DNA from: Desulfarculus baarsii DSM 2075
GTDB lineage: Bacteria > Desulfobacterota > Desulfarculia > Desulfarculales > Desulfarculaceae
Length of the DNA stretch: 64,000 nucleotides
Assembly (NCBI RefSeq): GCF_000143965.1
Contig: NC_014365.1
Location: 399,501 to 463,500, forward strand
Reading direction: 5' to 3'
Below the pieces are notes generated by a model that searched no databases, was not told the DNA's origin, and saw only the letters and a program-made list of their open reading frames with translations. A program made the translations under genes and the position numbers. Shown here piece by piece: positions 10,347-37,104 of this stretch. The number at the start of each line of letters is the position of its first letter. Position 1 is the first letter of the stretch.

Positions 10347-13223
10347 TCACAGTTGTGAATCATTTTGCCCAGCCTGACTAACCGCCCGCAGCAGCATGGC
10401 CTTGTCCACGGGCTTGCGGATGATCCGGCGCGGCGGCGGCACGTCGTCGGGCGGGGTCATGGCGGCGTGCTCCAGGCTCCAGCCGGTGATGATCAGCACT
10501 GGCGTGGGCGGCCGGCCGGCGGCGGCGTCGTGGCGGGCCAGCAGGCGGGCCACGTCCCAGGCGTCGCCATCGGGCAGGCCCAGGTCGCAGATCAACAACT
10601 CGGGCGGGCGCTCCTCCAGGGCCTGGCGGGCCTGGGCCACGCCGGCGGCGTGGCGCACGCGGTGGCCGGCCGCTCCCAGCACGGCCTCGGCGCCCATGGC
10701 CACCAGGGCCTCGTCCTCCACCAGCAGGATGTCGCGTCCTGGCGCGGGCGCCTCTTCGATCGGCTCCTCGGGTTGCGTCGCCGCGCCCGGCGGGGCCGGG
10801 GCCAGGGGCAGGCTGACCACGAAGGTGGTCGGCTGGCCGGGGGCCGAATCCAGGCGCAGGCCGCCGCCGTGGGCCTTGATGATGCCCTGGCTGCTGGCCA
10901 GGCCCAGGCCCTTGCCGCGCACGCCCTTGGTGCTGAAAAACGGCTGGAACAGGCGCTCGGCGATGCGCGGGTCCACGCCGGGGCCGTCGTCGCTGACGGC
11001 AAGCTCGGCCATGGCGCCGTTGACCCGGCCGCGCAGCCACACGCGCCCCCGGCCGTCGACGGCGTCGAGGGCGTTTTTGAGCAGGTTGAGGATCACCTCG
11101 GCCAGTTCGCCCCGCGCGCCGCGAACGTAAATACCCGGATCAACTTCGATTTCGAAGCTGACGCCCTTCCTGGCCGCCGGCGCGCCGCGGGCCAGATCCA
11201 GGGCCGTGTGCGCCACGTCGGCCAGTTGCAGCACCTCCTCGCGGGCCGATTCGAACAATCCCGAGACCAAAAAGGCCTCCAGCCGGCGGACCATGTCCTG
11301 GCCGTCGGCGGCGGCGCGAGCCACGTTGTGCAGCAGGGCCCGCTGGTGGCCGGAGCCCAGCCGGCCCCGCAGGGCGTCGCCCAGGGCCTGGGCGTTGCTG
11401 GTGATGGCCATGAGCAGGTTGTTGAAGTTGTGGGCCACGCCGGCGGCCACCTGCTGGACCCGCTCCTGGGCCAGGGTGCGGGTGGTCGAGTCGCGAAAAA
11501 ACATGATCAGGCACGAAACGCCGTCGAGCTCGATGTGGGCGGTGGCCGCGTCGCAATAGATCATCTGGCCGTCCTTGCGCCGGAAGGGCAGGGCCTGGGC
11601 CTGATCGCAGACGCCGCCGCGCATGCCGTCGATGATCGGCAAAACCTGCTGGCGCAGCTCGGGCGGGTGAAACATGAAGCCGAACATGCCCGCCAACTCG
11701 TGGTGCTCGTAGCCCAGGATGGCCGCGGCGGCCTGGTTGGCGTGGAGCACCTCGCCGGTGATCAGGTCGGTGAGGATCATGCCGTCGGGCATGTTTTCCA
11801 GCAGGGTGCGGTGAAAAAGCTCGCTCTGGCGCAGGGCCTGCTCGGCGCGGCGCTGGCTGGTCACGTCCACGCCCGAGGCCACCATGTACTCCACCTCACC
11901 GCCCGCGCCGACGATGGGCGTGGTGCTCCAGGCCACGTCCGCCCGGCCGCCGTCGGCGGTCAGCCACTGGCGCTCGCGGTTGGGCCTGATGGCCGCCGGG
12001 TCGAACTCGGCGAAAAACAGGCGCACGGTTTCACGGTCCTCGGGCGGGATCAACATCTCCCAGACCGGCCGGCCCACCACCTGTTCGGACGAAAAACCGG
12101 TGACCCGCTGGCAGGCCCGATTGAAGCTGACCACCCGCCCGGTGGTGTCGAAGGTCATGATCAGGGCCGGGGCGTTTTCGAGGATGGCCCAGATGAATTC
12201 GCTCTGACGGCGCAGGTTTTCCTGGGCCTGGCGGCTGGCGGTGACGTCGCTGGCCACGCCCCAGGCCCGCCAGCCCTCAATGGGCGCCAGGCCCGAGACG
12301 TCGCTCCAGGCCACGTGCCGCCGCGCGCCGTTTTTGGCGCCGATGACGATCTGGGCGCTGACGGCGCGGCCGGCGCTTTCGGCCACCAGCCGGCGCTGGG
12401 CCTTGTCGGGCAGCAGCAGGGCCAGGGCCTGGCGGGCGTCGCCCAGTTCGTCCATGGCGTAGCCGGTCAGCTCGCGGGCGGCGTTGTTCCACAACACCGG
12501 ACGGCCGTCGTCGCCAAAGGCGTAGACGGCGCTGGGCAGATTGGCCAGGGCGGCCAGCAGGCGGCTCTGATTGCGGGCCAGCTCCTGGCGCGAGCCGATC
12601 AATTCGGCGTGGCTTTTTTGATAAAACAGCACCAGCAAGGCCAGCGCCGTGACCACCTCGCACACCGCCCCCGAGAGCAGGCCCCACACCAGCATCTGGG
12701 GCAGCCAGTGGTGCAACAGCGTCACCACCAGCGTGTGGCCCAGGCCCCAAGTCAGCAGCGCCCCACCGGCCACCAACCGCGAAAGGCCGTCCAGACGGCG
12801 CTCGGCGATGAGGCTCCAGCCGGCCATGGCGTAGACCAACGCCGTGGCGGCCAGCACCGGGGCCATGGCCACGGCGTAATTCTGGTCCAGGCGATAGGCC
12901 GCCAGGGCCCAGGCCAGGCCCAGGCCCAGCATGGCCAACGGCCAACGCGGCGCGGGCCGCTCGGCTAGCAGGCGGCAGCCAACCAGCAGGCTATAGGCCC
13001 CGGCCAGAGCCAGCGCGCCGTAGAGCCAAAAGGCCGGATTGTCGCCCTCGAAACGCGGCGGCAGCCAAAAGGCCAACAGATTGCGGGCCAGATAAGCCCC
13101 CCAGGCCACGGCCCAGGCGCCCAAAAACGGCCGGCGGTGCAGCCAGTAGAGTTGGCCGTAGACGCAGAAGATGATTACCGAGGCCGCCAGCCCCGCCGCC
13201 AGCTTGGGCAGGATCCAATCCAT
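10347..13223 (-). CDS. Membrane PAS-domain hybrid histidine kinase
   Basis: 958 residues from ATG 13223 (MDWILPKLAAG). About seven membrane helices (1-220) are followed by three PAS domains (about 245-570). The phosphoacceptor region is QQVAAGVAHNFNNLLMAI with His near 596; HNFNN replaces the usual HEFNN. The HATPase (about 690-805) has NLLKNALDAVDG, DDGPGVD and GKGLGLASSQG. A C-terminal receiver (about 830-955) has ILLVEDEALV and the phospho-Asp in LLICDLGLPDGD. It should autophosphorylate and relay to its own receiver; the output partner is unknown. The membrane domain matches that of the kinase at 57059. The open frame extends to 13397, but ATG 13223 aligns with that paralogue. Confidence 0.9.
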   Translation of the reverse strand: MDWILPKLAAGLAASVIIFCVYGQLYWLHRRPFLGAWAVAWGAYLARNLLAFWLPPRFEGDNPAFWLYGALALAGAYSLLVGCRLLAERPAPRWPLAMLGLGLAWALAAYRLDQNYAVAMAPVLAATALVYAMAGWSLIAERRLDGLSRLVAGGALLTWGLGHTLVVTLLHHWLPQMLVWGLLSGAVCEVVTALALLVLFYQKSHAELIGSRQELARNQSRLLAALANLPSAVYAFGDDGRPVLWNNAARELTGYAMDELGDARQALALLLPDKAQRRLVAESAGRAVSAQIVIGAKNGARRHVAWSDVSGLAPIEGWRAWGVASDVTASRQAQENLRRQSEFIWAILENAPALIMTFDTTGRVVSFNRACQRVTGFSSEQVVGRPVWEMLIPPEDRETVRLFFAEFDPAAIRPNRERQWLTADGGRADVAWSTTPIVGAGGEVEYMVASGVDVTSQRRAEQALRQSELFHRTLLENMPDGMILTDLITGEVLHANQAAAAILGYEHHELAGMFGFMFHPPELRQQVLPIIDGMRGGVCDQAQALPFRRKDGQMIYCDAATAHIELDGVSCLIMFFRDSTTRTLAQERVQQVAAGVAHNFNNLLMAITSNAQALGDALRGRLGSGHQRALLHNVARAAADGQDMVRRLEAFLVSGLFESAREEVLQLADVAHTALDLARGAPAARKGVSFEIEVDPGIYVRGARGELAEVILNLLKNALDAVDGRGRVWLRGRVNGAMAELAVSDDGPGVDPRIAERLFQPFFSTKGVRGKGLGLASSQGIIKAHGGGLRLDSAPGQPTTFVVSLPLAPAPPGAATQPEEPIEEAPAPGRDILLVEDEALVAMGAEAVLGAAGHRVRHAAGVAQARQALEERPPELLICDLGLPDGDAWDVARLLARHDAAAGRPPTPVLIITGWSLEHAAMTPPDDVPPPRRIIRKPVDKAMLLRAVSQAGQNDSQL

Positions 13224-27406: not shown

Positions 27407-27606
27407 TGCACGGGGGCGTCCTGTCCCGTGCGCGCCGTCCATGGCGCGTTTCGGCCGCCGCACGGTAGAATGCATGTTTCACCGGTAATTATCTGTTTTT
27501 ACAACATTTGTTGTGTTTCACCGTGCAACGGCCTCAAAACATCAAGCATCAACAAGCTGCTAGCTTCACAAAACATTGCACGGGGGCAGGCGCCCCCGTG
27601 CAACGG
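27407..27606. repeat. Short repeats and hairpins in the non-coding gap
   Basis: TGCACGGGGGC occurs at 27407-27417 and 27577-27587; CCGTGCAACGG at 27521-27531 and 27596-27606; GTTTCACCG occurs twice (about 27476 and 27515). The first copy folds with CCCGTGC at 27425-27431. The stretch 27480-27580 is AT-rich compared with its surroundings. No transposase or coding sequence is seen; it may be a remnant or a regulatory RNA region. Confidence 0.45.
27576..27603 (-). terminator. Hairpin terminator of the GAK operon
   Basis: Perfect 12-bp stem TTGCACGGGGGC/GCCCCCGTGCAA with a 4-base loop, 23 bases after the XXXCH stop codon. On the minus strand it is followed by TGTTTTGTG. On the plus strand T6 lies 7 bases beyond it, so it may work both ways. 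Confidence 0.55.
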
Positions 27607-27626: not shown

Positions 27627-28151
27627 TTATTTGTATTGCTCGTGGCAGGCCTTTTTGCGCTGGGCCAGGTCTTGGGCCGCCTGGCGGGCCTGATCCAGCG
27701 CGCCGGCCTCCACGGCCGTTTGCAGGGCCTGGACCAGGGCCAGATAGGCCGGGTAGTGCTCGTCGCCCTTGCCGGCAAAGCCGACCATGCGCCGGCTCTG
27801 CTCGACGAAAAGCCGCGTCAGCTCCGGCGATGGCGTTTGCCCCTGGGCCAGGGTTTTTTCGAGCTGACCCCACGACTTGGCCATGGCCTTTTTCAGGCTC
27901 TTGTAACCGCGCGGGGCCGGGCCGGCGCTTTTGGGGGCCGCCTGGGCGGCTGGGCCGCGATATTTCAGCTTCAGCTCCAGGCTGGTCTTGCCGTCTTTTT
28001 CCTTCAGCGCCTGTTTCAGCTCCAGAAGGGCCTGGTCGGCCAGCACGGCCGCGCCCAGGCGACCTTGATCCAACTCGGCGGCCAGGGCGCGCAGCAGCTC
28101 GGCGGCCTGGCCGGCCGAAAGCAGGCGTTTGGTCTGTTCCTCGGAGGCCAT
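27627..28151 (-). CDS. GAK system XXXCH protein
   Basis: 174 residues, mostly helical. The C-terminus ends in RKKACHEQYK, the CH-containing tail that names the XXXCH family of GAK loci: a CxxCH-like motif lacking its first cysteine, so classical haem attachment is unlikely. Residues 10-66 have the layout of an amphi-Trp domain (AAELLRALAAELDQGRLG, then KTSLELKLKYRG). The rest (about 80-170) is a separate helical domain rich in Gln/Ala. It is the last gene of the operon, 24 bases after the amphi-Trp gene. Cytoplasmic, function unknown. Confidence 0.82.
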   Translation of the reverse strand: MASEEQTKRLLSAGQAAELLRALAAELDQGRLGAAVLADQALLELKQALKEKDGKTSLELKLKYRGPAAQAAPKSAGPAPRGYKSLKKAMAKSWGQLEKTLAQGQTPSPELTRLFVEQSRRMVGFAGKGDEHYPAYLALVQALQTAVEAGALDQARQAAQDLAQRKKACHEQYK

Positions 28152-28175
28152 GGCGACTGCTCCCCCGGCGTGGGC

Positions 28176-28601
28176 CTACTTGCGGCCGCCGCGGCCGGCT
28201 TTCTTTTCTTCGTCCTCGGGCGTCTCGGCTTTGGTCAGGCTTTCGGCCGGGGCCTCGACGATCACGGGCGTTTCGCCGGCGGCCACCGGGGCGGCCGGGG
28301 CCTCGGGAGCGGCTTCCTCGACCGGCGGCGGCGTGGGGGCCTCGGCGCTGATCTTGAGCTGGGCGGTCGGTTCGACGTGGCCCAAGCGCCAGCTCAACTC
28401 CAGGCTGATCTTTTGCCGGCCTTTTTTGGCCGCGCCTTCCAACTCCAATTCCAGATTTTGGGCCGGGCACAGCTCCATGAACTCGTCGCCCCGCTGCAAG
28501 ACCACGCGGCCCTGTTCCAGGCAGGCGGCCAGGTCGCGCAGGTAGCCGGCGGCCTGGGCCAGGTTGAGGCTGGATTTGATCTCGATCTCGTTTTTGCCCA
28601 T
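28176..28601 (-). CDS. Amphi-Trp domain protein with disordered tail
   Basis: 141 residues from ATG 28601, with AAGGAG 7 bases upstream. Residues 1-75 form the amphi-Trp domain: helix AGYLRDLAACLEQGRVVLQ, strand LELELEG and the ending KISLELSWR with the defining tryptophan. Residues 80-141 are Pro/Ala/Glu-rich and then basic (GRGGRK), probably disordered. Amphi-Trp domains are small modules frequent beside GAK genes in bacteria and archaea; a partner- or product-binding role is likely but unproven. A start at 28634 would add residues with no conservation. Confidence 0.82.
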   Translation of the reverse strand: MGKNEIEIKSSLNLAQAAGYLRDLAACLEQGRVVLQRGDEFMELCPAQNLELELEGAAKKGRQKISLELSWRLGHVEPTAQLKISAEAPTPPPVEEAAPEAPAAPVAAGETPVIVEAPAESLTKAETPEDEEKKAGRGGRK

Positions 28602-28636
28602 TGCAGGCTCCTTTCGTGGAAAAACACTAGCCAACT

Positions 28637-29836
28637 TTAGATCAATGATAGCAAAACACCCAACAAACAGTCTGGATCAAATGTCTTGGCCGCTGGATCG
28701 GCGACCAGGGGCGCGTCGATGACGTCGACGCCCAACTCGCGCAGTTCCTCGGGCCGCGCCCGGCCGCCGGGATATTCCAGGCGCGAATCGATCAGCACCA
28801 GGTCCAGGGGCCGCGCGCCGGGCGGCTGGCCCTGGCCCAGATAAGCCAAAAGCGTGGCCACCGCGCCGCTCAGGGTCATGCCGATCTGTTCGGGGTCGCC
28901 GGCCAGGTTGGGCACGTAGACCTTGGGGCAAGGGGCCTGGGCCACGGCCTGGCGCACGCCGTCGGGCAGGAGGTTGGCCACCACGCTGGTGTAGAAGCTG
29001 CCCATGGGAAAACAGATCAGCTCGGCCTGGCCGATGAGGTCCAAGAGTTTTTGGCGCACGGCGGCCCGGGCCGGCCGGGGGTCGTCCAGGCCGGCGCAGA
29101 GGTAGAGCCGCTGGATGGGCGCGCTCAGGGCCGGGCCTTGGCGACCGGTGAGCAAATGCTGGCCCAGCACCAGGCGGCCGTCGGCCAGTTCGGCGGCCAG
29201 GTGCAGGTCGGCGTTCAGGACCGGCCGCACCACGCCGCGCACCTCGGCCATTTTGCTGAACATGAAGATGACCGGGTCCAGGTGGCGGTCGTGATCCAGA
29301 TAGCCGCCGCACAGCGTCAGATTGCCCAGGCTGGCCCCGCGCAGGTCGAAATCGGCGGGCAGGGCCTGGGCCAGGCGGGCCAGGTGCTGGCGGATGATCT
29401 TGCGCAGGGGGTCGGGCGTGGCGGCCACCAGGGGATGCCGTCCGGCGACCATCAGGGCCAGGGTCTCGGCCAGGGTCTGGGCGCTTTGGTCGCTGGGCAG
29501 GCGGTGGGCGAACAGGCGGGCCACCTGGGGGTTGCCCTGGATGCCGGGGTCGGCCAGGGACATCAGGCGGTTGCGGATGTCGCCCACGGCAGGCATGCCA
29601 AAGGCCCGGCGCAGCACGGCCGAACTGCCGCCCGAGTCGAAGGTGGTGATGACATGGATGGAGTTGTGGGTGTGATCGATGAGCCGGCGGCAGAGCTGAT
29701 GCAGGGCCGAGCCGCCGCTGAAGAACAACACCCGCGGCCCCAGGTCGGGGGCGCGGCGAAAGCGGGCCAGGCGCACGGGGTCGGGCAGGCGGGCCAGGCG
29801 GCTCAGGCGCGCGAAGGTGACGGGGCGGTCGGTCAT
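28637..29836 (-). CDS. GAK system CofD-like protein
   Basis: 399 residues from ATG 29836. The N-terminus is a CofD/YvcK fold: VLFFSGGSALHQLCRRLI, ITTFDSGGSSAVLRRAFGMP and VGDIRNRLMSLAD. LGNLTLCGGYL and FPMGSFYTSVVANLLPDG follow. CofD transfers a lactyl-phospho group in F420 synthesis and YvcK binds UDP-sugars; the GAK branch has no assigned reaction. It starts within the stop of the kinase gene (ATGA), so the two are translationally coupled. A nucleotide- or phosphodiester-handling role is likely. Confidence 0.88.
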   Translation of the reverse strand: MTDRPVTFARLSRLARLPDPVRLARFRRAPDLGPRVLFFSGGSALHQLCRRLIDHTHNSIHVITTFDSGGSSAVLRRAFGMPAVGDIRNRLMSLADPGIQGNPQVARLFAHRLPSDQSAQTLAETLALMVAGRHPLVAATPDPLRKIIRQHLARLAQALPADFDLRGASLGNLTLCGGYLDHDRHLDPVIFMFSKMAEVRGVVRPVLNADLHLAAELADGRLVLGQHLLTGRQGPALSAPIQRLYLCAGLDDPRPARAAVRQKLLDLIGQAELICFPMGSFYTSVVANLLPDGVRQAVAQAPCPKVYVPNLAGDPEQIGMTLSGAVATLLAYLGQGQPPGARPLDLVLIDSRLEYPGGRARPEELRELGVDVIDAPLVADPAAKTFDPDCLLGVLLSLI

Positions 29837-30948
29837 GGTTGATAGGCCAGGCGGGGGATGGCCGGCGGCAGCAGGCCGTGCAGGGCCTTGGCCGCGGCGG
29901 GAAAATCGGCCCCGCCGCTTAGCTCGTGAACCGGGCAATCGCCGAGCATGGCCAGATAGGCCGCCACGCTCATGTCGGGCCCTTGGCCTTGGGGCGGCAG
30001 ATAAAAAACGCCCGGCGACTTGATGAAGGCCTCCAGCAACTGGGCCTTGCGCTCCGCCGTGACTCGCTCCAGGCAAAACGGGCCACCGCCGTGCCGCCAG
30101 GTCAGCACCACCAGGCCGTCCAGGGGCGCGCCCAGCCGGAAACGGCCCGGCCCGAAGCATTCGTCGAGATAGGCGTCGTATTTGTGCTCCAGGCGCCACA
30201 ACTCGTCCGGCGGCAGGGCGGCGAAGCCGGCCAGGTCGTCGGGCGGGATCACGCCTTGCAGGCCGGGCGTGCCAAGCACGGTGCCGGGGTTGATGCGCGG
30301 CAGCTTGGCCACGCCTTCCATGCGCAGGCCCCGGGCGTCGCGGCCGATGAGCAGGCGGTCGTTGGAGATGAAATCCAGGCCCAGGCCCATCATGTGCAGG
30401 GCCAGGGTCGATTTGCCCCGGCCGCTGAGGCCGGCGATGGCCAGGCCGCCGGCGTGGTTGGCCACGGCCGCGGCGTGGCACAGCAGGCGGCCGCGATCGA
30501 GCAGCCACTGGATGTGCCGGCTGTTGATGAAATTGACCACCTGGTTGTCGTTGGCCTGGCAGGGCCCCACGGCCAGGTTGAGGCCGTCGCCCAGCAAAAA
30601 GACCATGCCGGTCAGGCGCTTGCGCACCACGCGGCCGCCGTCTGGCAAGTCGAGGAATTCTTCCTTGATCTTGTCCTTGCCGGGGTCGGGCGCTTTTTCG
30701 CGGAGGGCCAGGCCCAACTCGGGCGCGGCGGCCTCGATGGCCCGCACGATGATATCGGCCGGGCCCGCCTGGCCATGGGCCAGGAAATCGCTGAAATAAC
30801 GGCGCAGGCCGTTGACCAGCCCCGGCGAATCGCTCTCCAGGCGCAGGCGGCAACCGGCCAGGTTCAAGTCCAGAGCGTGGGCCAGGGGACGGTCGTCCAG
30901 GCCCAGGCGCTGGGCCAACTGGGGCGCGGTGGGCGTCTTGGCGCTCAT
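29833..30948 (-). CDS. HprK-related kinase (GAK type, kinase B)
   Basis: 371 residues from ATG 30948. The kinase core has a Walker A AGLSGRGKSTLALHM (about residues 170-184) and the HprK-like FISNDRLLI just after. IKSPGVFYLPPQG lies near the C-terminus. The N-terminal 150 residues are family-specific. HprK phosphorylates a serine of HPr; HprK-related proteins of GAK loci act on an unknown target, perhaps one of the small amphi-Trp/XXXCH proteins. Four-base overlaps on both sides (ATP-grasp before, CofD-like after). Confidence 0.88.
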   Translation of the reverse strand: MSAKTPTAPQLAQRLGLDDRPLAHALDLNLAGCRLRLESDSPGLVNGLRRYFSDFLAHGQAGPADIIVRAIEAAAPELGLALREKAPDPGKDKIKEEFLDLPDGGRVVRKRLTGMVFLLGDGLNLAVGPCQANDNQVVNFINSRHIQWLLDRGRLLCHAAAVANHAGGLAIAGLSGRGKSTLALHMMGLGLDFISNDRLLIGRDARGLRMEGVAKLPRINPGTVLGTPGLQGVIPPDDLAGFAALPPDELWRLEHKYDAYLDECFGPGRFRLGAPLDGLVVLTWRHGGGPFCLERVTAERKAQLLEAFIKSPGVFYLPPQGQGPDMSVAAYLAMLGDCPVHELSGGADFPAAAKALHGLLPPAIPRLAYQP

Positions 30949-31841
30949 GATCGCAGCTTCTCCAGGATATAGTCGGCGTAGAGTCCGGCCGCGTCGACGC
31001 CTTGCGACTCCAGCAGGCCCCGGAAGCCGCCAAAGGCCGAGACCTCGAAGACCACCGGGCCGTCGGCGGTTTCGGCCACGTCCACGCAGGTGAAGTCCAG
31101 GCCAAAGGGCGCTTGGGCCCGGGCGGCCAGGGCGATGACTTCGGGACCGGGGTCGCAGGCCAGATACTTGCCGCCGCCGGGCTGGGGCCGGCCGTGCACG
31201 GGCTCGAAGCGGGCGGCCCGGGCGTAGGAGGCCAGGTATTGGCCGCCCAGAAAGACCAGGCCCAGGTCGCGGCCGCCGGGGCGCACCATTTGTTGCAGAT
31301 AAAAAAAGCGGTGGCCCTGCTCGCGGAAGGCGGCCAGGGCCGCGGCGCAGCCGTTGCCCGGCTCCAGGACGATCATGCCCCGGGCCTTGGAGGTGTAGAG
31401 CGGCTTGAGCACGCAGGGCCCCAGGCGCTCCAGGGCCTCCAGGGCCACGTCCTGGTCCTCGGTGACCACCGTCGGCGGCATGGGGATGTCGTTTTGGCGC
31501 AGCAACAGCGTGCAACCCAGGCGGTCGATCATCGGGCCCACGCGCGCGGGCGCGGAAAAAATCGGCAGGCCGCCCTCGGCCAGGAAACGCAGCATCTCCA
31601 GGCGGTCCAGCAGATGAGGCGAATAGCTGGCCCCCAGTTTTTTCAGGGCCAGGCCGTCCATTTCGGCCAAATTTTGGCCCAGATGGCGCACCACGCCGCG
31701 CTCCAGGTCCAGTTCCAGCCGGCGCGGGTCGATGATCGGCGCGGTGGCCCCCCGTTGGGTCAGGGCCTGTTGCAGGCGCATGGTCGACCAGCCCTCGGGC
31801 AGGCCCACCACGCCCACCCGTTTTGACGCGTTGGCGCTCAT
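30945..31841 (-). CDS. GAK system ATP-grasp enzyme
   Basis: 298 residues from ATG 31841. RimK-like ATP-grasp ligase: GPMIDRLGCTLLLRQNDIPM, LGPCVLKPLYTSKARGM (ATP-binding lysine loop), FFYLQQMVRPGGRD and the metal region VVFEVSAFGGFRGL. The usual ExN of the metal site reads EVS here, a substitution worth noting. ATP-grasp enzymes join a carboxylate to an amine via an acyl phosphate; RimK relatives add amino acids to proteins. Overlaps its neighbours by four bases on both sides. Substrate unknown. Confidence 0.87.
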   Translation of the reverse strand: MSANASKRVGVVGLPEGWSTMRLQQALTQRGATAPIIDPRRLELDLERGVVRHLGQNLAEMDGLALKKLGASYSPHLLDRLEMLRFLAEGGLPIFSAPARVGPMIDRLGCTLLLRQNDIPMPPTVVTEDQDVALEALERLGPCVLKPLYTSKARGMIVLEPGNGCAAALAAFREQGHRFFYLQQMVRPGGRDLGLVFLGGQYLASYARAARFEPVHGRPQPGGGKYLACDPGPEVIALAARAQAPFGLDFTCVDVAETADGPVVFEVSAFGGFRGLLESQGVDAAGLYADYILEKLRS

Positions 31842-33487
31842 ATGACCTCCAGGCCGACCAGGGCCTGGCCCGGCAGGCGAAACTCCGCCCAGGGCCGGCC
31901 GCGGTGGCCGATGATTTTTTCCATGAGGTAAAGCGATGTCAGATACAGATGATGGGCGAAATCTTCGTTTAGCTCGAAGCGGGTGGAGGTCATCAGCGAG
32001 CGGATCAGGCCCAGGGCCAGGCGGGCCTCGAAGGACGCGTCGTTGTTTTGCTGGGCAAAGGCCAGGGCAAAGGCCAGAATCTCGCGGGCGGCCGCGCCCA
32101 GGCGGCGGCGCAGGGCCGGCTCGAAGACCGGCAGACGCAGGCACGAGGCGATGAAGACGCTGACGTCCTGGGCGTAGTCGCCGGGGTCGGAGCGGTGCAG
32201 GTCCAGGTAGTGCAGGCGCTGCTGCTTGTGGTCGTAGATGATGTTGTTGAGGTTGTAATCACCGTGGATCAGCACGCTGAAAGGGCAACAAAGCTCGGCG
32301 TCGATCTCCTGCACGCGGCGCAACAGCATGCCCACCGAGGGCACCTCCAGCGGGCCGATTTGCACCGCCTCGCCCTCGAAGCGCGGGTGGACCCGGTAGA
32401 CGTCCTCCAGCCGCGACAAGAGCTGGCCGATGAAATTGGCCCGGCCGGGGCTTTCGCAACGGGTGGCCCGCCAGACCGCGCCCATGGTCTCGGTGGTCAT
32501 GAACAGGGCGTTCTGGACCACCTCGTCGGCGGCGGTCAACAGCACCTCCTGCACGGTGCAGCCGCTGAGGTACTCCAGCAACAATGAGGCCTGGCCGTTG
32601 TTTTCCTGAAAGCCGAACAAGCGCGGCGGCAGGCCGGGCATGACCTTTTGCCAGTGCTCGATGGATTGCTTCTCGGCCAGGATCTTGGCCCGGACCCCTT
32701 CCTTGAAGATGACCCGATGGGCCCGCGACGAGTCGCTCTTGTCGGCCACCGCGCCCACCTTGCAGCCCGAGCGGTTGCCCCAGAAGGAGCTGAACTCCAC
32801 CTCGGTCATGGGCGCGCCCAGGCCCGAGGCGGCCAGGGTGTCCTGCAGGGCCTCGTATTGATGAATCTTCAGGCGCTCGCCCACCAGAACGAAGATCAGC
32901 GCCTCGCCGATGTTCAACAGCGAATCGCCCATGCGCTCCAGGTAGCGATAGATGAACAGCGCCGTGACCAGCTCGCCGGTGTGCCGGCCTCGTTGCAGGT
33001 CGGTGAGTATCTGGCCCATGGTCGCCTTGAACAGGTCGTCCAGGCGGAACTCGCATTGACAGATGCCCAGGGCCAGCGACAGATCGCGGCGCTCCATGGC
33101 CGGGACGATCATCTCCAGGCCGGCCAGCACCTCGTCGAAGTAGGGCTGATAATCGTAGCGCGTCAGAAAGCGGGCCTCGCCCAGGTATTGCAGTTGGCCC
33201 ACCACGTTGACGGCGAAATCGGCGATGCGCTCGAGGTTGCTGGCCATGGTGATCAGGCAGCGCAGCAGGTTGGCCGTGGCCCGGTCCACGGGTTGGCCCA
33301 CCAGGCACGAGAACGACTTTTCCTCGATGAGGCCTTTCATCGAGTCGATGTAGTCGTCACGGTTGGTGATTTTTTCGCGCCGGGCCAGGGTCGGTTCGGC
33401 CAGGCAGCTCAGGGTCTCCTCGAGCTGCTTGCGCACCTCCAGGATCATGAAGCGAAAGTTTTCGTCAAGGCCGGCCGGCAGTTGCAT
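31838..33487 (-). CDS. PhoU-like / aminoglycoside-phosphotransferase-like fusion
   Basis: 549 residues. Residues 1-225 are a PhoU-like helical domain, with ITMASNLERIADFAVNVVGQ and, later, YRYLERMGDSLLNIGEALIF, the paired PhoU signatures that bind metal clusters. Residues about 245-549 are an APH/choline-kinase fold: SSSRAHRVIFKEGVRAK-like nucleotide lobe, the Brenner motif VLIHGDYNLNNIIYD (Asp near residue 408) and HYLDLHRSDPGDYAQD for the metal aspartate. It should be a small-molecule or protein kinase controlled through PhoU. It overlaps the ATP-grasp gene by four bases and is 24 bases after the amphi-Trp gene, so it is part of the operon. Confidence 0.85.
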   Translation of the reverse strand: MQLPAGLDENFRFMILEVRKQLEETLSCLAEPTLARREKITNRDDYIDSMKGLIEEKSFSCLVGQPVDRATANLLRCLITMASNLERIADFAVNVVGQLQYLGEARFLTRYDYQPYFDEVLAGLEMIVPAMERRDLSLALGICQCEFRLDDLFKATMGQILTDLQRGRHTGELVTALFIYRYLERMGDSLLNIGEALIFVLVGERLKIHQYEALQDTLAASGLGAPMTEVEFSSFWGNRSGCKVGAVADKSDSSRAHRVIFKEGVRAKILAEKQSIEHWQKVMPGLPPRLFGFQENNGQASLLLEYLSGCTVQEVLLTAADEVVQNALFMTTETMGAVWRATRCESPGRANFIGQLLSRLEDVYRVHPRFEGEAVQIGPLEVPSVGMLLRRVQEIDAELCCPFSVLIHGDYNLNNIIYDHKQQRLHYLDLHRSDPGDYAQDVSVFIASCLRLPVFEPALRRRLGAAAREILAFALAFAQQNNDASFEARLALGLIRSLMTSTRFELNEDFAHHLYLTSLYLMEKIIGHRGRPWAEFRLPGQALVGLEVI

Positions 33488-33511
33488 GATGTTTTATCCG
33501 CCTTGGGCCGC

Positions 33512-33799
33512 TTAACGGCCGTCATCGCCCATGGTCATCGGCCGCACGGCCAGGTCGCCTTCGCCCAGGCTTTCCTCGTTCCAGCGGAACTTGAGGGTCA
33601 GCTTCATCTGCTCGTCCTTGCGCTTGGCCTCCACCTCCAGCTTGATCAGACCTTGGGGTTTGAGCACCAGGCGCTTGTTTTCGGTGCAAAACAACAGCGC
33701 CCCCTGCTTGAGCCCGGCGCTGAGGGCCTCCAGGTAGCCGACGATGGACTGGCTGTCTTGCAGGGAGACGTGCTTGAAGCTGTTGTCCGACGAAGACAT
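33512..33799 (-). CDS. Amphi-Trp domain protein
   Basis: 95 residues, one complete amphi-Trp domain. The helix SIVGYLEALSAGLKQGALLF is followed by strands ENKRLVLKPQGLIKLEVEA and the ending KLTLKFRWNEES with the conserved tryptophan. Cytoplasmic, no enzyme motif. Gaps of 24 bases separate it from genes on both sides. Probably a binding partner or substrate of the GAK enzymes. Confidence 0.87.
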   Translation of the reverse strand: MSSSDNSFKHVSLQDSQSIVGYLEALSAGLKQGALLFCTENKRLVLKPQGLIKLEVEAKRKDEQMKLTLKFRWNEESLGEGDLAVRPMTMGDDGR

Positions 33800-33823
33800 G
33801 GGTTCGTTCTCCAGATTGGTGGT

Positions 33824-34975
33824 TCAGGCCAGGCGGCCGCGATATTGGTCGATGACCCGGTCGCGGTCCATGCCGGCCAGCATCAGGGCCTTGCGGATGG
33901 CCGGGTCGTCCCAGGCCGGTTGCAGGCCCACCTCGCGGGCGGCCTTTTGGCGGTCTTGCAACTCGGGGGGCTTGGCCTTTTCGCTCATGTGCGTATCGTC
34001 GCCCATGAAGACAAGCAGGCGGCGTTCGCCGTGGGCGCGGGATTTGTTCTGGCGGTTGAGCACGCCGATGAGAAACTCGGTGTATTCGCGCGATTGCGGG
34101 TTCCAGACCTCGTAGCCGTCCACGTCGTAGTCGGCCAGCAAGATGGGCCAGAACTGCTCGGGATGGGGGATGACCACGCCGGCCCCCAGGCCGCGCGCCT
34201 CTTCGATGACCTCGCTGGCCCGATAGAAATATTGCAAGGAAAACTCGCGCTTGACGATCTGCTTGACCGCCTTGGCCAGCAACAGCGCCCGGCTGATCAT
34301 GCGCTCCGGTCGCCAGGGGCGCTGGGCGGCGATGAACTCGCTGACCAGCTTGTTCTTGATCATCATCGGCGGGACGTCAGACTCGTGATCGGCCAGCAGG
34401 GCGCGCAGGCGGGCGGCGCAATCGCGGACAAAGGCCACGACCTCGTCGTTGGCCCCGGTCTCGGCGGCGGCCTCTTGCATGCGGGCATCCCAGGCCGGCT
34501 CGACGATGGAGTCGATGAACTCCCACAACTGGCCGCCGCGATATTTGAAGGTGTGCGAAAGCATCGAACGCAGCACGTCGGCCCGCTCCACGGCCTCGGC
34601 GCGCATGTGCAGCAAAAGCTGGACCTTGCGGTTGAAGCCCGACGAATAGCAGTCGATCTCCACGCCGGCCAGTTCGCCCAGGCAGAGCAGCTCGTTGTGC
34701 TGGGTGGGGATGATCAACTGATTCTGGCGGTTGGGGTAGCTGGCCGCCAGGCGGGCCATGGTCAGCTCGATGGGGATCCACTCCGGGTGCCAATGCACGG
34801 CCAGCACCGCGCGCTGGCGCGGATGAACCGCCGGCGGGGCGACCAGCCGCGCCCGCTGCTCGGCGCTCAGCTCCACCGAGACCAGGTCGCGGAAGATCTC
34901 CTCGTCCAGTCGCTCTTGGTCTTCCGGGCCTGGGCCCGCCGCTTTGTTGTCGATTTCGATGTTGGCCGTGGTCAT
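33824..34975 (-). CDS. PHP-like phosphoesterase-type protein, first gene of the GAK operon
   Basis: 383 residues from ATG 34975, with AGGGAG 6 bases upstream; the frame is open to 35071, but that part lacks a ribosome-binding site. Four spaced motifs fit the PHP metal-site pattern: LAVHWHPEWIP (HxH), AGVVIPHPEQFWPIL, DVDGYEVWNPQSREY and LVFMGDDTHMSEK. PHP enzymes hydrolyse phosphoesters such as histidinol phosphate or nucleic acids. This protein is longer and more diverged than typical members, so the call is moderate. Its place at the head of the operon suggests it prepares or removes a phosphorylated substrate for the GAK enzymes. Confidence 0.68.
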   Translation of the reverse strand: MTTANIEIDNKAAGPGPEDQERLDEEIFRDLVSVELSAEQRARLVAPPAVHPRQRAVLAVHWHPEWIPIELTMARLAASYPNRQNQLIIPTQHNELLCLGELAGVEIDCYSSGFNRKVQLLLHMRAEAVERADVLRSMLSHTFKYRGGQLWEFIDSIVEPAWDARMQEAAAETGANDEVVAFVRDCAARLRALLADHESDVPPMMIKNKLVSEFIAAQRPWRPERMISRALLLAKAVKQIVKREFSLQYFYRASEVIEEARGLGAGVVIPHPEQFWPILLADYDVDGYEVWNPQSREYTEFLIGVLNRQNKSRAHGERRLLVFMGDDTHMSEKAKPPELQDRQKAAREVGLQPAWDDPAIRKALMLAGMDRDRVIDQYRGRLA

Positions 34976-35451: not shown

Positions 35452-37104
35452 ATGAACGTCGCTCATCATTCGTCCTGGCCCAATCGCATGCCCAAGAAGC
35501 TCGATTATCCCCAGACGCCCCTGCACGACCTGCTGGCCACCAGCGCCCGCAGGTTTCCCGACAAGCCCGGCGTGATCTACTACGGCCAGGTCATCACCTA
35601 CGCCCAGCTCTGGGATCAGGCCCAGCGGCTGGCCGGGGCCCTGGCGGCCATGGGCCTGCAAAAGGGCGACCGCGTGGCGCTTTACATGCAAAACTGCCCC
35701 CACTATCTGATCGGCTGCTTTGGCGTCTACGCCGCCGGCGGCGTGGTGGCCCCCTTGAACCCCATGCTGGTCGAGCGCGAGCTTTACAACATCGTCGGCG
35801 ACAGCGGGGCCAGGTTTATCATCACCACCACCGAGCTTTACGGCCGGGTGGCGCCCATCGCCGCCGATCTGGGCGTGGAGCGGGTCATCTGCGGCTCGTT
35901 GTGGGACTACATGCCCGAAAACCCGGCCATCCCCGCGCCCGACTTCATGGCCGCCACGCCCAGGGCCATCGACGGCGCCGCCGCCTGGCTGGAGACCCTG
36001 GCCAGCGCCCCTGGCGCGCCCCAGGTCGATATCGACATCAAAGCCGACCTGGCCATGCTGCCCTACACCGCCGGCTCCACCGGCCTGCCCAAGGGCTGCA
36101 TGCACACCCACGCCACGGTCATGTCCAACGTCTGGAGCGCCATGTACTGGACCCAGCTCTCCAGCGGGGCCAACGTGCTGTCTTGCCTGCCCTTTTTTCA
36201 CGTGACCGGTTTCGTGCACAGCCTGGCCGCGCCCCTGGCCGCCGGGGCCACCCTGGTCATGCTCACCCGCTGGGACCGCGAGGCCGCCCTCCAGGCCGTC
36301 GAAAAATACGGCGTGACGCATTTTGTCAACATCACCGCCATGATGGCCGACATCCTCTCGGCCAAGGATATCGAAAGCCGCGACCTTGCCAGCCTGCAAA
36401 TGGTCGGCGGCGGCGGCGCGCCCCTGCCGGTGGCCCTGGGCCAGCGCCTCAAAGACCTCACCGGCCTGGACTACGTCGAGGGCTACGGCATGACCGAGAC
36501 CATCAGCCAGACCCACTTCAACCCCTGCGACAAGGTCAAGCTGGGCTCCATCGGCATCCCCGATTTTGGCGTCGACGCCCGCGTCATCGACATCGAGACC
36601 TTGCGGGAGCTGCCCGCCGGCCAGCAGGGCGAACTGGTCATCCACGGCCCGGAGATCATGCTGGGCTATTGGAACAAGCCCGTCGAGACCAAGGAGGCCT
36701 TCATCGAGCTGGGCGGCAAGCGCTTTCTGCGCACCGGCGACATCTGCCGCATGGACGAAGAAGGCTACTTTTTCATCACCGACCGCCTGAAGCGCATGAT
36801 CAACGCCGCCGGCTTCAAGGTCTGGCCCGCCGAGATCGAGGCCGTGCTCTACAAGCACCCCCATGTGCTGGAGGCCTGCGTGATCAGCGCGCCCGACGCC
36901 AAGCGCCAGGAGACCGTCAAGGCCCTGATCGTGGCCAAGCCCGGCTGCCAGCCCGACCCCGAGGAGATCATGGCTTGGTCGCGCAAGGAAATGTCGGCCT
37001 ACAAGGCCCCGCGCATCGTCGAGATCGTTGCGGCCCTACCCAAAAGCGGCGCGGGCAAGATATTGTGGAGACAGGTCCAAGAGCAGGAAATGGCCAAACG
37101 CTAA
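35452..37104 (+). CDS. AMP-forming acyl-CoA synthetase (fatty-acid CoA ligase type)
   Basis: 550 residues of the ANL superfamily. P-loop LPYTAGSTGLPKGCMHTHAT, adenylate motif GYGMTETISQTH, hinge TGDICRMDEEGYFFITDR followed by LKRMINAAGFKVWPAEIE, and the catalytic lysine in PKSGAGKILWR at the C-terminus. Activates a carboxylic acid to its acyl-AMP and then the CoA thioester; chain length or aromatic preference is not readable. The start ATG 35452 has GGAG 7 bases before it. The phosphotriesterase-like gene follows 23 bases later, so the pair probably acts on one carbon source. Confidence 0.92.
   Translation: MNVAHHSSWPNRMPKKLDYPQTPLHDLLATSARRFPDKPGVIYYGQVITYAQLWDQAQRLAGALAAMGLQKGDRVALYMQNCPHYLIGCFGVYAAGGVVAPLNPMLVERELYNIVGDSGARFIITTTELYGRVAPIAADLGVERVICGSLWDYMPENPAIPAPDFMAATPRAIDGAAAWLETLASAPGAPQVDIDIKADLAMLPYTAGSTGLPKGCMHTHATVMSNVWSAMYWTQLSSGANVLSCLPFFHVTGFVHSLAAPLAAGATLVMLTRWDREAALQAVEKYGVTHFVNITAMMADILSAKDIESRDLASLQMVGGGGAPLPVALGQRLKDLTGLDYVEGYGMTETISQTHFNPCDKVKLGSIGIPDFGVDARVIDIETLRELPAGQQGELVIHGPEIMLGYWNKPVETKEAFIELGGKRFLRTGDICRMDEEGYFFITDRLKRMINAAGFKVWPAEIEAVLYKHPHVLEACVISAPDAKRQETVKALIVAKPGCQPDPEEIMAWSRKEMSAYKAPRIVEIVAALPKSGAGKILWRQVQEQEMAKR

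Follow-up and report, generated by a model that had tools for sequence, protein, structure and literature searches.

The GAK operon of Desulfarculus baarsii: a redrawn gene set and a candidate phosphorylation cycle on a small amphi-Trp protein

The DNA studied here is a window of 64,000 nucleotides from Desulfarculus baarsii DSM 2075 (399,501–463,500 of the single 3,655,731-bp contig NC_014365.1), and the feature of interest, at positions 27627–34975 of the window, is an operon of the GAK system, a widespread system that has been named in NCBIfam and whose function is so far unassigned. Comparison with relatives shows one conserved unit with its catalytic motifs kept, a phosphoesterase that is replaceable, a minimal trio of genes, and a serine (Ser12) in the small protein amphi-Trp 1 that tracks the presence of a second layer of enzymes. 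The best explanation is a core of amphi-Trp 1, a PhoU-APH kinase and a phosphoesterase, with an ATP-grasp enzyme, an HprK-related kinase (HprK-B) and a YvcK-like protein as the second layer. From the sequence comparisons, these proteins may modify amphi-Trp 1 in a reversible cycle based on phosphorylation (probability about 0.4).

As GAK already bears a name, the D. baarsii locus is not a new system. No GAK paper turned up in the literature searched and, as far as that literature shows, the membership of the PHP and PhoU-APH genes, the trio, the variant with swapped phosphatases, the revised families and the candidate modification site are new. The membership is redrawn, two misleading labels are corrected, and a puzzle of eight proteins is narrowed to a single residue in a protein of 95 residues. 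If the proposal is true, the status of phosphate, carbon and perhaps haem would be linked in environmental bacteria by a new cycle that modifies a small protein.

The operon and its enzymes

All eight genes lie collinear on the minus strand, from 34975 to 27627, and their reading frames are clean. From 5' to 3' they encode a PHP-family metallophosphoesterase (33824–34975, 383 amino acids [aa]), amphi-Trp protein 1, the system's universal small protein (33512–33799, 95 aa; TIGR04354, 71 bits), a PhoU-APH fusion kinase (31838–33487, 549 aa), a LysX/RimK-like GAK ATP-grasp enzyme (30945–31841, 298 aa; grasp_GAK TIGR04356, 432 bits), HprK-B (29833–30948, 371 aa; HprK_rel_B TIGR04355, 534 bits), a 'CofD-like' protein (28637–29836, 399 aa; CofD_rel_GAK TIGR04357, 535 bits), amphi-Trp protein 2, an accessory with a charged tail (28176–28601, 141 aa; TIGR04354, 69 bits), and the XXXCH protein, which ends in CHEQYK (27627–28151, 174 aa; TIGR04358, 110 bits). 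The five NCBIfam GAK models (TIGR04354–TIGR04358) all exceed their curated cut-offs within this single operon. An earlier note, made from the letters of this DNA, had described a complete GAK operon of eight genes, and all are present; it had counted four ATGA overlaps, where there are three, between PhoU-APH and ATP-grasp (31838–31841), ATP-grasp and HprK-B (30945–30948), and HprK-B and the CofD-like gene (29833–29836), all on the minus strand. The remaining junctions are gaps of 24–35 nucleotides.

Among 84,980 species genomes scanned, 507 relatives of the ATP-grasp gene were found, and the best 80 loci were compared with flanks of up to 10 kb. By record title these belong to Desulfobacterota, Phycisphaerae, Zixibacteria, Nitrospina, Nitrospirae, Gemmatimonadota, Atribacteria, Alphaproteobacteria and Gammaproteobacteria. 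The usual order is PHP, amphi-Trp, PhoU-APH, ATP-grasp, HprK-B, CofD-like and amphi-Trp, with XXXCH at either end. Found again in dozens of loci across many phyla, the arrangement goes far beyond chance. Among loci with enough readable sequence, the neighbours of the ATP-grasp gene are PhoU-APH (72/75), HprK-B (68/75) and PHP (62/70). Within the home family of D. baarsii, the ATP-grasp, PHP and PhoU-APH genes occur in the same 14 genomes and are all absent from the other 6, so that every GAK genome carries both PHP and PhoU-APH (14/14) and no genome lacking GAK carries either (0/6). The earlier note had asked for such a survey of co-occurrence and had named a lack of conservation of these two neighbours as evidence against its proposal; instead, they are constant companions across both loci and home-family genomes. 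As members of the system they are steadier than the named CofD and XXXCH genes. The NCBIfam definition omits both, although they are at least as constant as the genes that it names. The five enzymes have correlated distance matrices (r 0.58–0.80), a correlation to which a common species history contributes. Two of the genes are joined in a Zixibacteria metagenome-assembled genome (L035, 3874–6213), where HprK-B and the CofD-like protein lie in one frame of 779 residues with both domains complete. This is the only case of two full domains in one frame; other apparent fusions in the automatic open reading frame maps, such as long 'grasp' or 'HprK' frames, mostly come from extensions in alternative frames where the DNA is GC-rich.

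The first gene product has 61 invariant columns across 51 relatives, with the motifs HxH, TQHN, GVE, PHPE and GDDTH. It has no Pfam or NCBIfam match, and no PDB match by sequence. Its model (predicted local distance difference test, pLDDT, 93) finds as its best PDB structural matches 3e0f/3o0f, the PHP phosphoesterase BAD_1165, and 9etk, RNase AM. The PHP motifs and the fold are thus held in common with RNase AM/YciV and other PHP phosphoesterases, at a TM-score of ∼0.4 (query) to 0.5 (target) and with no sequence match; the initial assignment as PHP-like was right. The predicted PhoU-APH fusion is also real, with matches to PF01895 and to PF01636/PF02958, and to PDB structures of PhoU and APH(3'). 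Its PhoU domain has conserved motifs and resembles solved PhoU proteins, and the HGDxNxxN catalytic loop of APH-type kinases is kept in 73/73 sequences. HprK-B retains the P-loop GxxGxGKS[TA] and NDR, with the Asp that follows the P-loop, in 69/69. The ATP-grasp enzyme best resembles LysX and RimK in PDB matches, and also matches the MptN model (115 bits).

The label 'CofD-like' is misleading. The GAK CofD model is matched, but the protein is YvcK/GlmR-like and not CofD. It matches PF01933 (141 bits), a family that includes YvcK as well. Significant PDB matches are to UPF0052/YvcK only, with no CofD or FbiA up to E=1, and the YvcK motifs GG-[ST]-x-L, D-x-GGSS-x-x-LR, GDxRxRL and GSFYTS are all found. 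The differences are an insertion between two conserved blocks, other partners, and a probable change at the ligand site. YvcK/GlmR binds UDP-sugars via Tyr265 and Arg301 in B. subtilis numbering (PMC5482804), and in Listeria it is an accessory uridyltransferase (PMC5482804, PMC10128056). Mapped by numbering offset, Tyr265 is ambiguous and Arg301 appears to align to Asp in the D. baarsii protein, so the ligand probably differs.

A minimal trio and a variant with other phosphatases

Of the 37 genomes in a sister family within the class, 33 have PHP and 31 have PhoU-APH. The ATP-grasp and HprK-B genes are absent from all 37, and the CofD-like gene from all 7 sampled. The PHP, amphi-Trp and PhoU-APH genes are consecutive in these loci, often between dnaX-ybaB and acetate kinase (neighbours named by reading), and their kinase and PHP motifs are largely kept. 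In three of the genomes PHP lies elsewhere, with amphi-Trp and PhoU-APH still adjacent. As the sister family keeps only these three genes, the minimal module is this trio and not the set of genes after which the system is named. With its motifs retained, it marks the heart of the system as a small protein, a kinase and a phosphoesterase. By reading, the unlinked PHP gene follows a gene for a metallo-beta-lactamase-fold-like hydrolase (L221, 9752–10678; L223, 10297–11226).

The phosphoesterase itself is replaceable: Alphaproteobacteria carry a histidine phosphatase (PF00300) and a calcineurin-like phosphoesterase (PF00149) instead of PHP. All 20 of the alphaproteobacterial loci that were fetched have PhoU-APH, ATP-grasp, HprK-B, histidine phosphatase, calcineurin-like phosphoesterase and amphi-Trp in a row, with the two phosphatase genes in swapped order in one. 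PHP occurs in none of 19 alpha- and gammaproteobacterial genomes and in all 8 Desulfobacterota run alongside. Annotated Rhodobacterales plasmids have the same layout, with generic names for the PhoU-APH, histidine phosphatase and metallophosphoesterase genes. GAK is plasmid-borne in Tritonibacter. In two Marinobacterium loci a two-domain SixA-NUDIX protein adjoins GAK (e.g. L093, 11986–12972), and a similar gene occurs in some alphaproteobacteria (the loci listed for SixA-NUDIX are L093, L110 and L158–L162).

The CofD-like gene is often unlinked in Alphaproteobacteria but is never lost (31/31 ATP-grasp-positive genomes). When unlinked it adjoins glycerate 2-kinase in 18/18 loci, from related genomes and so not 18 independent events; its usual further neighbours are RbsD, a LacI regulator and a sugar ABC transporter. 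A GAK CofD-like gene without the core adjoins a FadD-like acyl-CoA ligase gene in L198–L205, L211 and L212, with arginine deiminase and uronate catabolism genes nearby (named by reading). In L212, from an alphaproteobacterium without the GAK ATP-grasp gene, a relative of HprK-B with a degenerate P-loop (10652–11701) also adjoins it.

Ser12 of amphi-Trp 1 and the proposed cycle

Amphi-Trp 1 has the motif F-x-x-E-S-x-Q-D, which is kept in Desulfobacterota, Planctomycetes and Alphaproteobacteria; in D. baarsii, Val replaces the Glu. The position of its serine, Ser12 in D. baarsii (codon 33764–33766, minus strand), is occupied by Ser in 57/58 full systems versus 0/17 trio-only loci, where Phe, Leu, Thr or Ala is found instead. 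Asp15 is kept in both groups alike. The alphaproteobacterial proteins, from systems with HprK-B, again have Ser. Amphi-Trp 2 is without the S-x-Q-D motif. Ser12 is placed just ahead of the first helix by homology with the amphi-Trp domain in the model of the XXXCH protein, a part of modest confidence. This conservation pattern makes it a candidate modification site, and the simplest reading is that it would be modified by HprK-B.

HPr-kinase homologues phosphorylate a serine of HPr; in HPr, Ser46 sits where a helix begins. The likeness to HPr/HprK-P consists of a P-loop kinase core with a preceding His and an Asp after the P-loop, and of a small-protein serine at a helix start as candidate substrate; amphi-Trp is no homologue of HPr in the searches made. 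A further precedent comes from lasso peptides, where an HPr-kinase homologue phosphorylates a serine of the precursor and, in pseudomycoidin, the kinase is joined by a nucleotidyltransferase (PMC8498205), so that a transferase step acts on the phosphoserine. Unlike that case, no lasso cyclase or peptidase is found among the GAK genes, and amphi-Trp is a folded, conserved protein and not a secreted peptide.

In the proposed cycle, amphi-Trp 1 would be the shared protein partner and substrate. HprK-B would phosphorylate Ser12, at the predicted N-terminus of helix 1; a second kinase of this cycle may be PhoU-APH, gated by phosphate or metal. The modification might then be extended or read by the ATP-grasp and YvcK-like enzymes, and would be removed by PHP or, in its place, by the histidine phosphatase and calcineurin-like phosphoesterase. 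The cycle would probably be tied to phosphate and carbon status. The earlier note had suggested a carrier-protein or peptide-modification cycle with a phosphorylated intermediate. A phosphorylation cycle on a small protein is indirectly supported, because an invariant serine tracks HprK-B, the catalytic motifs are conserved and other phosphatases replace PHP. A carrier of the LysW type, with its acceptor at the C-terminus, is not supported and was rejected: a LysX/RimK-like enzyme does adjoin a small protein here as in the LysW system, but amphi-Trp 1 and 2 both have highly variable C-termini with no conserved acceptor.

Several observations weigh against the proposed cycle. Two loci (L050 and L070) have the ATP-grasp gene without PhoU-APH and PHP, despite upstream sequence on hand. 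The CofD-like gene is also found in 21/56 alphaproteobacteria that lack the ATP-grasp gene. HprK-B matches HPrK/P around the P-loop only. The ATP-grasp enzyme has E-x-S in 81/81 sequences where its relatives, LysX and RimK among them, have the metal-binding E-x-N (EVN or EIN in 0/81), and its chemistry may therefore differ. The Ser12 contrast rests on one trio-only clade and is thus essentially one evolutionary change, and the serine could instead cap the helix structurally or contact some other partner.

A purely regulatory sensor of phosphate and carbon is a rather unlikely alternative. PhoU, the YvcK-like binder and the HprK-type kinase would then act through phosphorylated amphi-Trp, much as HprK/HPr-Crh and YvcK do in Bacillus, with no group added beyond phosphate. 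The YvcK/GlmR motifs, together with the link of YvcK to carbon use (PMC5482804), speak for it, as do the conserved motifs of the PhoU domain, the Ser-specific HprK family and the carbon-uptake genes around the unlinked CofD-like gene. Such a sensor has no need of the ATP-grasp ligase that is invariant in every full system, and the UDP-sugar-binding Arg of YvcK appears to be replaced here by Asp. Unlikely, too, is a small-molecule pathway in which the kinase, a CofD/YvcK-type transferase and a CofF/MptN-type ligase make a phosphorylated, amino-acid-conjugated cofactor, like the tails of F420 or tetrahydromethanopterin, and amphi-Trp only binds the product. The matches of the ATP-grasp enzyme to MptN and to RimK/LysX models agree with this, and so does the constant glycerate 2-kinase neighbour of the unlinked CofD-like gene, with its sugar uptake genes. 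F420 genes (CofD, CofC, FbiC) and a luciferase-like oxidoreductase gene adjoin GAK in two alphaproteobacterial loci (L086, 15592–19729, and L163). These are only 2 of ∼100 loci, however, and probably close relatives; the transferase resembles YvcK and matches no CofD/FbiA structure in the PDB, the core has no FO-synthase-like gene, and the trio-only loci are left unexplained. Synthesis of an F420-type cofactor was accordingly rejected as the main explanation, on the YvcK-like transferase and the two-locus adjacency, and retained as a rival.

An extended form of the cycle is distinctly doubtful. Amphi-Trp 1 might be a new kind of carrier, with Ser12 phosphorylated by HprK-B, a phosphodiester or nucleotidyl group built on it by the YvcK-like transferase, an amino acid or other acid added by the ATP-grasp enzyme, removal by PHP or its replacements, and the trio as the ancestral half. 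It is very improbable that XXXCH and amphi-Trp form a haem- or redox-responsive arm in anaerobes that the enzymes maintain: both sequence and fold make XXXCH a bundle of the cytochrome c'/b562 type, but most lineages are without it, its first haem Cys is absent and no export signal is apparent by reading. Hardly credible is an anti-phage or stress-defence module. The distribution is patchy and includes a few plasmids, but none of the eight proteins has a PADLOC match, neither phage records nor the viral-contig scan gave any match, inheritance is congruent, and no defence neighbours were seen.

The XXXCH protein, further amphi-Trp proteins and neighbouring genes

XXXCH is a lineage-restricted accessory, found in 34/81 loci (∼40%), which makes it an unlikely universal substrate. 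A profile search of the PDB matches cytochrome c' (E=4e-4), and the model has a four-helix bundle for which cytochrome c' is the first structural match (best E 2.4e-3, probability 1.0). Among relatives His170 is invariant, and Cys169 and Met90 nearly so. The protein shares the four-helix bundle and a C-terminal CHxxYK with cytochrome c'/b562, but differs in its fused amphi-Trp domain and in an incomplete CXXCH, of which only the second Cys is present. In a profile-profile comparison, the match to cytochrome b562 is weak and confined to the C-terminal part, and Met90 is therefore unproven as an axial ligand. Since no export signal is apparent, covalent attachment of haem in the periplasm is unlikely. 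The protein appears cytoplasmic, and may hold haem non-covalently or have an unrelated role.

Its amphi-Trp domain is degenerate (TIGR04354, 24.6 bits; cut-off 31). The D. baarsii genome accordingly has exactly three amphi-Trp domains, all of them in this operon. Additional amphi-Trp proteins lie outside the GAK locus in the genomes of L038, L041, L091 and L106, up to five altogether, and Haloferax volcanii also has amphi-Trp (a control match).

Directly 3' of the last gene is a terminator-like hairpin of 14 pairs followed by TTTT (27574–27605, minus strand), of a kind with a high background. On the other side, a long-chain acyl-CoA ligase gene (35452–37104) divergently adjoins the operon; it is shared by few of the 80 relatives, was rejected as an operon partner and is probably unrelated. 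In seven other loci (L044, L061, L066, L082, L100, L101 and L104) a glycosyltransferase-related gene, of up to ∼800 aa, lies within 10 kb of GAK.

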